Positions 8,754 to 17,327 of a stretch of DNA of 64,000 bases are shown here, piece after piece. Location of the stretch: the NCBI RefSeq assembly GCF_900103485.1, contig NZ_FNHW01000001.1, positions 2,563,057 to 2,627,056 on the forward strand, in the 5' to 3' direction. The position numbers and the translations under genes were made by a program. The notes under the pieces were generated by a model. It was given only the letters and a program-made list of their open reading frames with translations. It had not been told where the DNA came from and did not search any database. Every line of letters starts with the position of its first letter. Position 1 is the first letter of the stretch. The DNA is from Fictibacillus solisalsi. Its GTDB lineage: Bacteria; Bacillota; Bacilli; Bacillales; Fictibacillaceae.

Positions 8754-10286
8754 ATGGGCACATTTTTAAAAGGAACACTTATCTTATCATTGGCAATGCT
8801 TTATACCAAGGTTGTTGAATTTGTTGTCAGCATTCTTCTTGCACAGTCACTCGGCAGTGAGGGCATGGGTTTTTACATGATGGCGCTCCCTGTCATTGGA
8901 TTGCTGATCACAATTGCTGCCCTTGAATTTCCTACCGCTCTTTCCAAGGTACTCGCCGAAGAAGAAGTTCACCAGAATGAAAGGGCCAGACTGCAAATTG
9001 TAAAAGTATCGTTTTTCGTCATTATGGGACTTAGTCTGCTTCTTGTGGCGGTCAGTGCGGCCATTACCTTGCTTTTGCTAAGGTGGAAAAACATCGATAT
9101 CCGGCTGGGGTATCCGCTGCTTGCGCTGATTCCGATTGTTCCTGTGATTGGGACCAGTTCTATTCTAAAGGGATATTTTAGCGGCCTTCAGAAAATGAAA
9201 CCCATTGCTATTGCTCAACTATTAGAAAAGACGGCCCATTTAAGTTTTATTTTTTATGTGCTTCATTACGTGAAGGACCTGCCCCTGGAGTACCGGGTAG
9301 TTGCTGCCGTGCTTGGCCTGGGGGCCGGAGAGCTCGTTTCCCTGTTCTTCTTTTCTGCTTCATTTTTGCTCGGGGAGCGCACAACGGGAGAGGCAGCAAC
9401 CGAAACAACAGCTCCTGTATCCAAAAGAAGTATATTAAAAAAATTATTCCAGGTCAGTCTCCCTACCACCGGTGTGCGAATCCTGAATGCACTGACAGCA
9501 GCAGTAAACCCCATACTGATCACCCAAAGTTTACTCTTTGCCGGCATTGCCGCATCCGTTGCGACCAAACAATACGGGATGCTCACAGCCTTTGCCATGA
9601 CCATTGGATATTTCCCCGGTTTTATCGGGTATTCACTGTATGTATCACTGGTGCCTTCCATCTCCGAAGCACGTTCCAAACAGGATGATCATGCCTTGCA
9701 TCAACGGATTCATCAGGCATTCCATATTACCCTTCTTTATGGAATCCCGTGTTCCATTGTGATGTATTTTTTTGCAGATGAACTGACCGTCCTTTTTTAT
9801 CATTCACCACAAGCCGGCCAGTTTCTTATGCTGTTATCACCGTTTATTCTGTTTCATTATCTGCTTTCACCGCTGCAGGCTATTTTGTTTGGGCTGGGAC
9901 GCGCCAGGGATGTATTTTCACAAACGATCTGGGTCAACATCCTGTCCATCCTGCTGATTGTTTCGCTTGCATCCCAATCCTCATTCGGAATCCACGGCGT
10001 TATCATTGCGGTCAATTTCAGCGGCGTGCTACTTTCCTTTTTGCATTATCACACCATTGTTGAAGAGGTACATTTCAAGCCAAAGCTGATGGATTATGCG
10101 ATCTTTCTGGCTTCAGGAGCGTTCATCATCGTCATATGCGAATTGATGCACAGAACCCATTATGAGGACCATATATCAATTATCATTGTACTGGCTGTCG
10201 TATTTGCTGTTTATTATGGCACTTTATTCTTTCTGCGACTGTTTCAATCCGGCCTATCCCGGCTTTGGGTCAAGCCCGAGAAATAA
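8754..10286 (+). CDS. SpoVB/YkvU-like oligosaccharide flippase family protein
   Basis: A 510-residue polytopic membrane protein of the MOP/polysaccharide flippase superfamily. The N-terminus (FLKGTLILSLAMLYTK) and the LGSEGMGFYMMALP segment are typical of the SpoVB/YkvU group, which move lipid-linked intermediates and serve spore cortex formation. About 12-14 hydrophobic segments are present and the length matches SpoVB (about 518). The ATG at 8754 has an AAAGGGTG site; the longer upstream reading has none. A terminator follows at 10310. The paralogue cannot be settled by eye. Confidence 0.82.
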   Translation: MGTFLKGTLILSLAMLYTKVVEFVVSILLAQSLGSEGMGFYMMALPVIGLLITIAALEFPTALSKVLAEEEVHQNERARLQIVKVSFFVIMGLSLLLVAVSAAITLLLLRWKNIDIRLGYPLLALIPIVPVIGTSSILKGYFSGLQKMKPIAIAQLLEKTAHLSFIFYVLHYVKDLPLEYRVVAAVLGLGAGELVSLFFFSASFLLGERTTGEAATETTAPVSKRSILKKLFQVSLPTTGVRILNALTAAVNPILITQSLLFAGIAASVATKQYGMLTAFAMTIGYFPGFIGYSLYVSLVPSISEARSKQDDHALHQRIHQAFHITLLYGIPCSIVMYFFADELTVLFYHSPQAGQFLMLLSPFILFHYLLSPLQAILFGLGRARDVFSQTIWVNILSILLIVSLASQSSFGIHGVIIAVNFSGVLLSFLHYHTIVEEVHFKPKLMDYAIFLASGAFIIVICELMHRTHYEDHISIIIVLAVVFAVYYGTLFFLRLFQSGLSRLWVKPEK

Positions 10287-14366: not shown

Positions 14367-14600
14367 CTGACTTATTGATGAATCGATTGGATGATTTTGC
14401 TTCAACAGTCGTTGATGGGATGCGGCAGAAGGGTTTTACCCGTCACTTCAGGTACCTTCTAAAGCATTCTTTGATTTTTTTGCATCACGTCTGTATGATG
14501 TCCAAGACAGAGGAATTCCAAGGCTTTTCCGGCCTCCCTCACACTAAGGTTACGCTTACAAAACCAGGCTACTCTCATTAGTCCTGGTCATAATGAGTGA
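14322..14600 (-). ncRNA. candidate structured non-coding RNA
   Basis: A gene-free stretch of about 270 nt between trpE and the SDR gene. Read on the minus strand it folds locally into several stems: ACCAGG/CCTGGT (14563-14588), GAGG+GGC/GCC+CCTC (14510-14540), CATCA/TGATG (14483-14500), AGAAGG/CCTTCT with an inner GGGT/ACCC (14427-14460), then the terminator at 14322-14366. Short ORFs on both strands (68 aa plus, about 39 aa minus) lack ribosome sites. It could be an independent small RNA, or a dispersed repeat or remnant of a mobile element. I do not recognise a known RNA family, and I see no promoter that I would defend. Confidence 0.4.
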
Positions 14601-14616
14601 ATTGAATATCCAAAGT

Positions 14617-14643
14617 AAAAAAGAGCCGTCCGGCTCTTTTTTT
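14617..14643 (-). terminator. terminator of trpE
   Basis: The 9-bp stem AAAGAGCCG/CGGCTCTTT with a 2-nt centre overlaps the trpE stop and is followed by T residues on the minus strand. It makes trpE monocistronic. Confidence 0.8.
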
Positions 14644-16156
14644 AAGCATACAGTTCCATGGCTTCAGCCACTTGTATGGCCTTCAGCAGCGCTTTGGCTT
14701 TGTTGAACGTTTCATCATATTCATTCTCAGGAACAGAATCAGCGACGATGCCGGCTCCAGCTTGGATATAGGCTTTATCATTTTTAAAAAGAATGGTACG
14801 GATCGTTATGCACGAATCCATGTTGCCTGAAAACGAAAGGTAGCCGATGGCTCCGGCATAGGTTCCCCGAGCCTGTGTTTCCAGTTCTGCGATAATCTGC
14901 ATGGCCCTGATTTTTGGTGCTCCGGACAATGTTCCAGCAGGCAGGCACGAGATCAAGGCATCAAAGAAATCTTTGTCTTCACGAAGCAGTCCGCTAACAT
15001 CAGACACCATGTGCATGACATGAGAGTATCGTTCAATTTCCATAAAAGAAGAGACTTCCACACTTCCGTACTCCGACACCCTTCCTATATCATTCCTTCC
15101 CAAATCGACAAGCATCAGGTGCTCGGCAACTTCCTTTTCGTCAGCAAGCAATTCCTCAGCTAAAGCTTGATCTTCATCCATGTCTTTCCCACGGGGCCGT
15201 GTTCCCGCAATTGGACGGGTTCTCACCCGCTGCCCTTCCACTTTTACAAGCAATTCCGGGGACGAACCTACAATGGTTTCATCTGGAAGCTTGAGCAAAT
15301 ACATATAAGCCGATGGATTCACAATCCGCAGTACACGATAAACCGTCAGTGGATCGGCCTTGGTCTCACTCTCAAAACATTGGGACAGAACCACCTGAAA
15401 TATATCTCCGGCTGTAATATATTCTTTGGCCTGGTCTACCATCGAACAAAATTCTGATTTGCTCAAATTGGATTTTACTCCGCTGATATCCACTTCCTGC
15501 TGAGGAAGATAGCGAAATGACGGCACCGGCTGTTTTACGCTTTGCTCAAGGTGTTTCATGGTAGTCTCAATGGCTAAGCGTGCCTCTTCATAAAGTTCTT
15601 CAATTTGTTTTTCGGTATAATTTTGGGGTACGTGAAGGTTGCAAATAATATTGATTGACTGCCTCAAATGGTCAAAAACAACCAGTTCATCAACAAACAG
15701 GAATTTCATGTCATCGGTGTTGAGAATATCTTTGCTGTGAGGCGGGATTTTTTCAAAATACTGGAGAATATCATAACCAAAATAGCCAACAGCTCCACCT
15801 GTGAACTGAGGCAAATTTTTGTGCGCGGGACTTTTATATTGGTTGAGGAGAGATTTAAGGATTTCAATCGGATGGCCTGAATAGGTTTCATCCTGATCTT
15901 TTTTCTTTACATGAGTCTGCCCTTTTTTGCAGGAGACAACCATAAAGGGGTTCTTTCCAATATAGGAATAACGGGCCCATTGCTGTCCACCTTCTACACT
16001 TTCAAGCAAAAAAGAGTAATCTTCCTGATAATACGTTTGATACAGTTCAATCACTGTATGTACATCAGCAAATAATTCAATGCTTACAGGAATCAAATTG
16101 AAGGTTCCTGCCAATTGTTTCACTTCTTCCAACGATGGTTGAATCAATACGATCAT
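14642..16156 (-). CDS. trpE: anthranilate synthase component I
   Basis: A 504-residue TrpE: chorismate plus ammonia to anthranilate, the first committed step of tryptophan synthesis, working with a glutamine amidotransferase subunit (TrpG/PabA). The tryptophan feedback motif LLES is at about residues 50-53. PIAGTRPRG near 310-320 carries the Ala typical of TrpE rather than the Lys of PabB, and LPAGTLSGAPK and the C-terminal GAGIVADS motif are intact. The start is uncertain: this ATG lies directly against AAGAAGGG, a TTG nine bases later has better spacing, and a longer TTG reading lacks a site. No other trp gene follows; a terminator overlaps the stop. Its leader has a TRAP-type binding site. 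Confidence 0.93.
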   Translation of the reverse strand: MIVLIQPSLEEVKQLAGTFNLIPVSIELFADVHTVIELYQTYYQEDYSFLLESVEGGQQWARYSYIGKNPFMVVSCKKGQTHVKKKDQDETYSGHPIEILKSLLNQYKSPAHKNLPQFTGGAVGYFGYDILQYFEKIPPHSKDILNTDDMKFLFVDELVVFDHLRQSINIICNLHVPQNYTEKQIEELYEEARLAIETTMKHLEQSVKQPVPSFRYLPQQEVDISGVKSNLSKSEFCSMVDQAKEYITAGDIFQVVLSQCFESETKADPLTVYRVLRIVNPSAYMYLLKLPDETIVGSSPELLVKVEGQRVRTRPIAGTRPRGKDMDEDQALAEELLADEKEVAEHLMLVDLGRNDIGRVSEYGSVEVSSFMEIERYSHVMHMVSDVSGLLREDKDFFDALISCLPAGTLSGAPKIRAMQIIAELETQARGTYAGAIGYLSFSGNMDSCITIRTILFKNDKAYIQAGAGIVADSVPENEYDETFNKAKALLKAIQVAEAMELYA

Positions 16157-16313
16157 CCCTTCTTCATGAGAGACGAAGATTAGCAACCATAACCGCTAAT
16201 CTCAGCTCGGCTCTGCTCTTAATCTGTAATTGTTTTCTTAAAACTTCTCTACTCTTCTCAACTAATCTCGTGCGATTGTAAATCACTATATAATGCATTC
16301 GGAAAACTGTCAA
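16157..16313 (-). promoter_or_regulatory. trpE promoter and TRAP-type leader (ten NAG triplets)
   Basis: The promoter is TTGACA (16308-16313), 17 bp, TATAGT (16285-16290). The transcript then carries GAG/TAG triplets at an exact 5-nt period: block one at 16267, 16262, 16257, 16252, 16247 and block two at 16216, 16211, 16206, 16201, 16196 (lower coordinate of each triplet). A 28-nt gap between the blocks can form GTTTT-AAG-AAAAC. The last two triplets lie in an 8-bp stem AGATTAGC/GCTAATCT (16177-16202). Its 3' arm can alternatively extend into TCTTC/GAAGA, which covers the trpE ribosome site. There is no T-run, so translational control seems likelier than termination. Confidence 0.8.
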
Positions 16314-16388
16314 CCACTTTTCTGATTTAACACGGCACAATAAGGGAAACCTCTTTGAGATCCATCTATATATAGAAGAGGTGAGAAA

Positions 16389-17327
16389 ATGAAAGCTATC
16401 ATTATTAATGAATACGGCGGACGTGATCAGCTGGTAGAGAAGAACGTAAATAATCCCAAACCCGGTCCAAAAGATGTTCTCATTGAGGTTTATGCGACGT
16501 CAGTAAACCCGGTGGACTGGAAAATCCGCGAAGGTTATTTAAAGGACAATCTTCAATTAAAATTTCCTGTCATTCTCGGCTGGGATGCTGCTGGAGTAGT
16601 AAGAGAAACGGGCTCAGCCGTTACGAAATTTAAAACGGGGGACGAGGTATTTACAAGGCCCGCAACAGAGCGGGATGGAACGTACGCAGAACTGCTGGCG
16701 GCGGATGAAGATCTTGTTGCATTAAAACCGAAGAATTTGACGTTTAAGGAAGCTGCCTCTATCCCCCTTGTCGGTTTAACTGCATGGCAATGCCTGGTGG
16801 ATTTCGCACAAATTAAAGAGGGACAAAGAGTTTTGATTCACGCGGGAGGCGGAGGCGTTGGCAGCTTTGCGATTCAGCTGGCCAAGGCCAAAGGAGCTCA
16901 CGTTATTTCTACAGGAAGTGAGGACTCCGAAAGTATCATTAATGATTCCGGTGCAGATGAATTCATCAATTACAAAACAGAGGATTTCACTGAAGCAGTT
17001 CAACCGGTGGACATTGTTTTTGATACGATTGGAGGCGATGTACAAAAGAACAGCTATAAAGTGATCAAACCCGGAGGCGTACTTGTATCGATCGTAAGCC
17101 CTCCTGTTCAAAAAGATGCTACAAATCATTCAGTAAAAGCAGGCTTTGTCTTTCTTGATCCTGACGGTGAAGAACTTGCTGAAATCGGCAAACTGATCGA
17201 AGAAGGCAAGATCCGGCCATTTGTAGGAGAAAACTTCCAACTGACACAGGAAGGCGTCAGGGCAGCACATGAATTAAGCGAATCCCACCATGCGAAAGGA
17301 AAAATCATTATCACCGTTAAAGAATAA
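16389..17327 (+). CDS. zinc-independent quinone oxidoreductase / MDR-family alcohol dehydrogenase
   Basis: A 312-residue NADP-dependent enzyme of the medium-chain dehydrogenase family, quinone-oxidoreductase branch. It has the family opening (MKAIIINEYGG), GWDAAGVV for the GroES-like fold, and the cofactor motif HAGGGGVGSFAIQLAK near residues 139-154. The zinc ligands of true alcohol dehydrogenases are not present. The likely role is reduction of quinones or enals. The ATG has an AGAGGTG site, and the gene is single with a terminator. Confidence 0.88.
   Translation: MKAIIINEYGGRDQLVEKNVNNPKPGPKDVLIEVYATSVNPVDWKIREGYLKDNLQLKFPVILGWDAAGVVRETGSAVTKFKTGDEVFTRPATERDGTYAELLAADEDLVALKPKNLTFKEAASIPLVGLTAWQCLVDFAQIKEGQRVLIHAGGGGVGSFAIQLAKAKGAHVISTGSEDSESIINDSGADEFINYKTEDFTEAVQPVDIVFDTIGGDVQKNSYKVIKPGGVLVSIVSPPVQKDATNHSVKAGFVFLDPDGEELAEIGKLIEEGKIRPFVGENFQLTQEGVRAAHELSESHHAKGKIIITVKE

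Follow-up and report, generated by a model that had tools for sequence, protein, structure and literature searches.

A candidate TRAP-binding leader of two five-triplet blocks before the lone trpE gene of Fictibacillus solisalsi

Known TRAP sites and the layout of the trpE leader

TRAP (MtrB) sites, as the cited portion of PMC5378976 describes them, comprise 9–11 KAG triplets with spacers of 2–3 nt, sometimes longer. Bacillus subtilis provides the closest parallels, given here as in the extracts of the papers named. At trpE, a TRAP-promoted hairpin sequesters the Shine-Dalgarno (SD) sequence and so controls translation (PMC11255114, PMC12288461). At trpG, trpP and ycbK, control by TRAP is also translational, with triplets situated inside the translation initiation region (PMC11255114).

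The leader described here precedes trpE in the soil bacterium Fictibacillus solisalsi and lies in a window of 64,000 nucleotides, the whole stretch of DNA that was analysed. Compared with what those extracts say of the B. subtilis trp leader, it is alike in having a KAG array upstream of trpE and, further downstream, a hairpin that hides the SD, and TRAP binding is predicted to favour the hidden state. It differs in its lone trpE gene, in the lack of any terminator that could be found, in the division of the array into 5+5 by 11–29 nt, and in the proposed competing pairing, which joins the array and CUCU. With the trpG, trpP and ycbK sites it would share translational control by TRAP; unlike in those sites, 32 nt separate the end of its last triplet from the SD. 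The features of the locus are as follows.

16285..16313, minus strand: promoter, TTGACA-17 nt-TATAGT, matching 11/12 of the consensus
16247..16269, minus strand: TRAP-site block 1, five KAG triplets with period 5, GAG-at-TAG-tt-GAG-aa-GAG-ta-GAG (sequence and genus comparison)
16219..16246, minus strand: A-rich 28-nt gap with no stable fold (sequence, and folding of seven genus leaders)
16196..16218, minus strand: TRAP-site block 2, five KAG triplets with period 5, GAG-ca-GAG-cc-GAG-ct-GAG-at-TAG (sequence and genus comparison)
16177..16202, minus strand: hairpin H1, AGATTAGC/GCTAATCT, sharing sequence with the final two triplets of block 2 (possible pairing, alignment)
16153..16176, minus strand: hairpin H2, UCGUCUCU/AGGGAUGA, containing part of the ribosome site (possible pairing, alignment)
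16157..16163, minus strand: SD, AGAAGGG (sequence; GAAGGG invariant in the genus alignment)
14642..16147, minus strand: trpE, anthranilate synthase component I, TTG start at 16145-16147 (TIGR00564, 589.7 bits, cutoff 517.7; start by alignment)
14616..14644, minus strand: terminator-like hairpin and T-run, overlapping the trpE stop (by eye; missed by the terminator scan)

As the original prediction held, ten GAG/TAG triplets form two exact period-5 blocks of five, 28 nt apart, and these are the sole five-KAG runs of period 5 on either strand of the 64-kb window. They sit downstream of a strong promoter and upstream of a monocistronic trpE, so regarded because a divergent gene (16389-17327, plus strand) adjoins it upstream. 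The second promoter hexamer, at 17-nt spacing, is TATAGT in six of the seven genus leaders and TATATT in the other (G003). Its ten triplets, set apart by 2 nt in eight cases and by 28 nt in one, place the array within the description of TRAP sites in the cited portion of PMC5378976, and binding of TRAP to the trpE leader is very likely. Because the same source already allows occasional longer spacers, the split counts as a variant of a familiar site rather than a new kind.

The start of trpE is placed at the TTG because the aligned codon is ATG in four relatives (G003–G006) and TTG in two (G001 and G002). An ATG directly adjoining the SD is in another frame in G003, where, judged by eye, it soon meets a stop; its letters are kept there as the 3' arm of H2. 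The protein is 97% to TrpE of F. enclensis. An Rfam scan of the trpE region (15500-16800) returned no described RNA family up to E = 1, neither a T-box nor another known leader RNA; two further loci, L092 (the trpD leader, below) and L108, gave no Rfam match at gathering scores.

The leader was also predicted to lack a terminator T-run, and it does. There is no run of four or more T within 200 nt from block 2 onward in the window sequence, and a terminator scan of 14400-16450 on the minus strand reported no terminator-like site, with a sensitivity limited enough that it also missed the hairpin and T-run after the trpE stop. A terminator between array and gene, the mark of a trp attenuator, was not found in this leader.

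Genomic setting and conservation in the genus

The genome encodes TRAP, as the prediction required: the mtrB gene lies at C4:1653997-1654200, near 1.654 Mb (PF02081, 135.4 bits; NF009724, 139.7 bits, cutoff 117), close to hepT, ndk, a cheR-like gene and trpDCFBA-hisC. It is present in all 34 of the family genomes searched, this one included. The rest of the trp operon is, as foreseen, elsewhere: trpE is 0.93 Mb from trpC, which is part of trpDCFBA. In every one of the 24 family genomes that carry this trpE (seven in the genus, and 17 of the 18 in its sister genus, g2), trpE and trpC are on separate contigs or at least 0.8 Mb apart. The distant operon seems to have a TRAP-type attenuator of its own: its trpD leader (L092, upstream of 9897, minus strand) carries a dense KAG array, with period-5 runs at 10083-10124, after which a hairpin and T-run were read by eye. 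Nine genomes from two other genera of the family (G025–G033) are without this trpE. They have instead a TrpE-like match within an open frame of 728–768 aa, probably a fused anthranilate synthase, and in six of the nine it lies within 5 kb of trpC.

All seven same-genus genomes retain the trpE leader. Block 2 is an exact five-run in each of them, and some of its spacer letters are invariant too. Block 1 is exact in five; in G003 and G006 its spacing is irregular, with about five triplets present, the count depending on the choice among overlapping triplets. The phase of the triplets is thus kept within blocks, and not between them, for the gap measures 28, 29, 27, 16, 11, 16 and 11 nt in the seven leaders. 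Nor does the gap contain the bridge once envisaged. The GTTTT/AAAAC hairpin of the window folds at −0.5 kcal/mol, which 92 of 300 shuffles equal; elsewhere in the genus, one gap folds at −0.3 kcal/mol and five have no fold. A conserved bridging hairpin is ruled out.

Of the hairpins downstream, H2 has all eight pairs invariant in the five distinct rows that the seven genomes provide. In H1, every counted cell is paired, and one pair has a one-sided change; the row for G003, whose H1 arms fold with a 3-nt loop, is gapped and was set aside for seven of the eight pairs. The 9-nt linker UUCGUCUCU is invariant in all seven genomes while loops and gap vary. Across the genus alignment neither stem has a compensatory double change, and invariance alone cannot prove pairing. 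The 3' arm of H1 had also been predicted to pair over the ribosome site, as TCTTC/GAAGA. In that register the closing pair is lost in four of the five distinct rows, and it is ruled out. With the partner slid by three, as TCTTC/GAAGG, all 23 counted cells pair, and the idea survives in this form: UCUUC/GAAGG is a possible alternative route to hiding the SD, equally conserved.

Folding of the leader and the level of control

We propose that TRAP probably represses translation of trpE through this leader, by a variant of the B. subtilis mechanism. When tryptophan is plentiful, Trp-loaded TRAP would bind the ten GAG/UAG triplets, a single ring taking up both blocks with the gap looped out. When TRAP is not bound, the array in the nascent RNA would pair with the linker segment UCGUCUCUC and keep it off the ribosome site. 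Bound TRAP would prevent this pairing; UCGUCUCU would then be free to pair with AGGGAUGA, and this stem, together with the freed 3' arm of H1, would bury the SD and start region during transcription.

Several features of the folded leaders bear on this scheme. Downstream of the array, the SD-sequestering hairpin H2 can form its eight pairs in all seven leaders, a count of possible pairing by sequence alone. An invariant H2 that covers the ribosome site in every genome, together with the missing terminator, supports the earlier proposal that hiding of the ribosome site is the likely level of control. For nascent RNA that ends before the SD, its assumed 5' end being set by the promoter, folding joins CUCU to the array region, either the blocks or the gap, at a probability of 0.80–0.88 in all seven leaders, values that have no shuffle control. 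Its partner is mostly block 1 or the gap in six leaders, and block 2 in G003.

Folding the leader with and without the array, the check proposed at the outset, gave results that point both ways. With the array blocked, opening the SD-to-start region costs more in all seven leaders, 9.4–13.2 instead of 2.9–8.2 kcal/mol, at the +15 setting; under the +45 setting the window's own leader shows a smaller difference, 7.3 versus 7.9. At equilibrium, on the other hand, the SD is hidden independently of TRAP in six of the seven. In these six full leaders, CUCU pairs with the SD region at 0.93–1.00 whether the array is blocked or not, so a switch at equilibrium is not predicted; in G003 blocking raises this pairing from 0.46 to 0.63. 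Shuffled linkers, moreover, do as well as the real ones in switch energy in 58, 31, 79, 97 and 17 of 200 trials for the five leaders so treated (L086 and L090, near-copies, were omitted). An equilibrium RNA switch is thus unsupported. A co-transcriptional switch would agree with the folding results, which are no proof of one, and we are less sure of the RNA switch than of TRAP binding.

How much the triplets themselves signify can be judged from their frequency. Matches to the five-run KAG pattern number 31 in the seven genomes of the genus, against five for the reversed pattern. These 31 fall at six sites: trpE block 1 (five genomes), trpE block 2 (seven), trpG (seven), trpP (six), a methyltransferase-like gene (four matches in three genomes) and a DAHP-synthase gene (two). 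The trpE leaders and nine other loci were read for this assignment; the rest were assigned by their place and matched letters. Shorter runs mean little, because four-runs in the own genome are no commoner than the reversed control (13 versus 18). Runs of at least three KAG triplets occur within 500 nt upstream in 76 of the 80 trpE loci fetched, a threshold whose chance rate is uncalibrated. That the array is only a purine-rich tract with no TRAP function would sit well with the unremarkable four-runs. Such a tract would account poorly for the enrichment of five-runs, for a triplet phase that relatives keep within the blocks, and for the identity of the downstream gene, trpE, in a genome with mtrB; it has almost no chance of being the right explanation.

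Granted that TRAP binds, it might act in other ways. Bound TRAP might hinder the ribosome directly, with no RNA switch, H2 merely setting a low basal level. The pairing of CUCU with the SD region in both folded states of six leaders agrees with this, as does the position of the array: over the genus leaders the last triplet ends 24–32 nt before the SD and 42–48 nt before the start codon. Direct blocking is, besides, what trpG, trpP and ycbK of B. subtilis are described as using in the cited part of PMC11255114. We think it unlikely here. The KAG runs of trpG and trpP in this genome overlap the SD region itself, whereas those of the trpE leader do not, and the invariance of the 9-nt linker would be needless. 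Each block might instead bind a TRAP ring of its own, or just one block be used. The blocks are certainly separable, given the free length of the gap, and block 2 is the more strictly kept. Yet known sites have 9–11 triplets in the portions of PMC5378976 and PMC4347634 cited, so five alone should bind weakly, and block 1 retains about five triplets even in both genomes where it is irregular; separate use of the blocks is a distinctly unlikely reading. Finally, TRAP might cause transcription to terminate in the leader without a classical terminator, since B. subtilis TRAP is reported, in the abstract of PMC3913778, to bring about termination in vivo even when the attenuator has been mutated or deleted. 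The trpE leader showed neither a T-run nor a hairpin at the right place, and terminator-like hairpins with T-runs are present, by eye, in the trpE leaders of the sister genus and in the trpD leader of this genome. We hold termination of this kind to be improbable.

TRAP ring size, sister genera and other candidate targets

If, as we prefer, translation is repressed by one TRAP ring on both blocks, the split invites comparison with the size of that ring. According to the cited part of PMC3184956, Lys15, Asp71 and Thr72 are associated with the 12-subunit form of B. halodurans TRAP (3ZZL), and 11-mer TRAPs have Leu or Val at position 15. TRAP of all seven genus genomes has Lys15, Asp71 and Thr72 (alignment to 3ZZL, by eye) and is predicted to be a 12-mer. 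The B. halodurans leader is said in the same source to have 19 NAG triplets, compared with ten here. Ten triplets on 12 sites would leave two free, which would fit two arcs of five; ten on 11 would also work. The residues alone do not predict the split, because the g2 TRAPs that were examined share all three and the g2 trpE arrays are near-contiguous.

A bolder and rather doubtful suggestion is that the 5+5 design is matched to a 12-subunit TRAP. Each arc would cover five subunits and the free gap would span an unoccupied one. The blocks would differ in their jobs, block 1 mainly holding the anti-SD segment in the nascent RNA and block 2 also forming H1. The outcome would be a kinetic tryptophan switch that needs no terminator and acts on translation only, for a trpE remote from the trp operon. 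In structural terms, the relation between the number of subunits in a TRAP ring and the RNA site it binds is still an open question. A 5+5 site found in nature, with a gap of free length and in a genus whose TRAP has the residues of a 12-mer, could readily be used to test whether the ring depends on a continuous RNA belt.

The trpE leaders of the sister genus are the nearest relatives for comparison. They too have a lone trpE, a KAG array and a related protein (57–59% identity). Read by eye, the 17 g2 leaders differ in having near-contiguous arrays (a few spacers of 5–11 nt) and a GC hairpin with T-run before trpE, that is, an attenuator. Judged in this way, a single family has a lone trpE leader that is attenuator-like in g2 and terminator-free in the window's genus; the two genera make a natural pair in which to compare transcriptional and translational control by the same protein. 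In a TrpE tree of 47 rows (seven genus, 17 g2, 17 Paenibacillaceae loci and six pabB), the genus and g2 each form one group, and their order relative to Paenibacillaceae is unsettled.

Long gaps within arrays also occur farther afield. Gaps of 22–26 nt between runs of at least three triplets are found at six Paenibacillus trpE loci (L034, L046, L050, L055, L060 and L075). At L055, the 26-nt gap folds at −7.7 kcal/mol, as low as only three of 300 shuffles, and is closer to the bridging hairpin first imagined for Fictibacillus; at L046 the gap (22 nt as taken) is unremarkable, with 83 of 300 shuffles as low. A leader model searched against 397 genomes of the order under stricter filters gave three matches, two of them in the genus (this genome and G003). 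The third (E 0.007) was dropped, its downstream frame not looking, by eye, like TrpE. A plasmid search gave two trpE matches only, neither of them informative. Titles and the starts of abstracts, a coverage that most subscription papers fall outside and that makes for weak evidence of absence, mention neither TRAP sites of Fictibacillus nor any site divided 5+5. Related leaders may be listed in a comparison of Gram-positive trp regulation that dates from 2007.

Two of the six five-run sites point to genes other than the familiar trp targets. The first is a 234-aa methyltransferase-like gene (L107:2236-2958; its run is at C4:1951435-1951457), in which a TRAP-like run extends over the ribosome site and TTG start: TAG, GAG, GAG, TAG, GAG, and then, in phase, AAG, GAG, GAG. 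The run is present in G001 and G006 as well, and in G006 the frame ends after 99 aa. The protein belongs to no Pfam family and has no solved relative up to E = 0.1; its name comes from weak NCBIfam matches, far below cutoff, and from the sequence by eye. It is a possible new target of TRAP. The other is a second DAHP-synthase gene (L161 and L142 near 1500; L201–L205), found in five of the seven genus genomes and absent from this one and from G003. Four copies are alike (G001, G002, G004 and G006), and that of G005 differs. The start region has five KAG triplets, with more after a gap, in G001 and G002, and a weaker pattern in G004 and G006; the gene may place the pathway's first enzyme under TRAP control.
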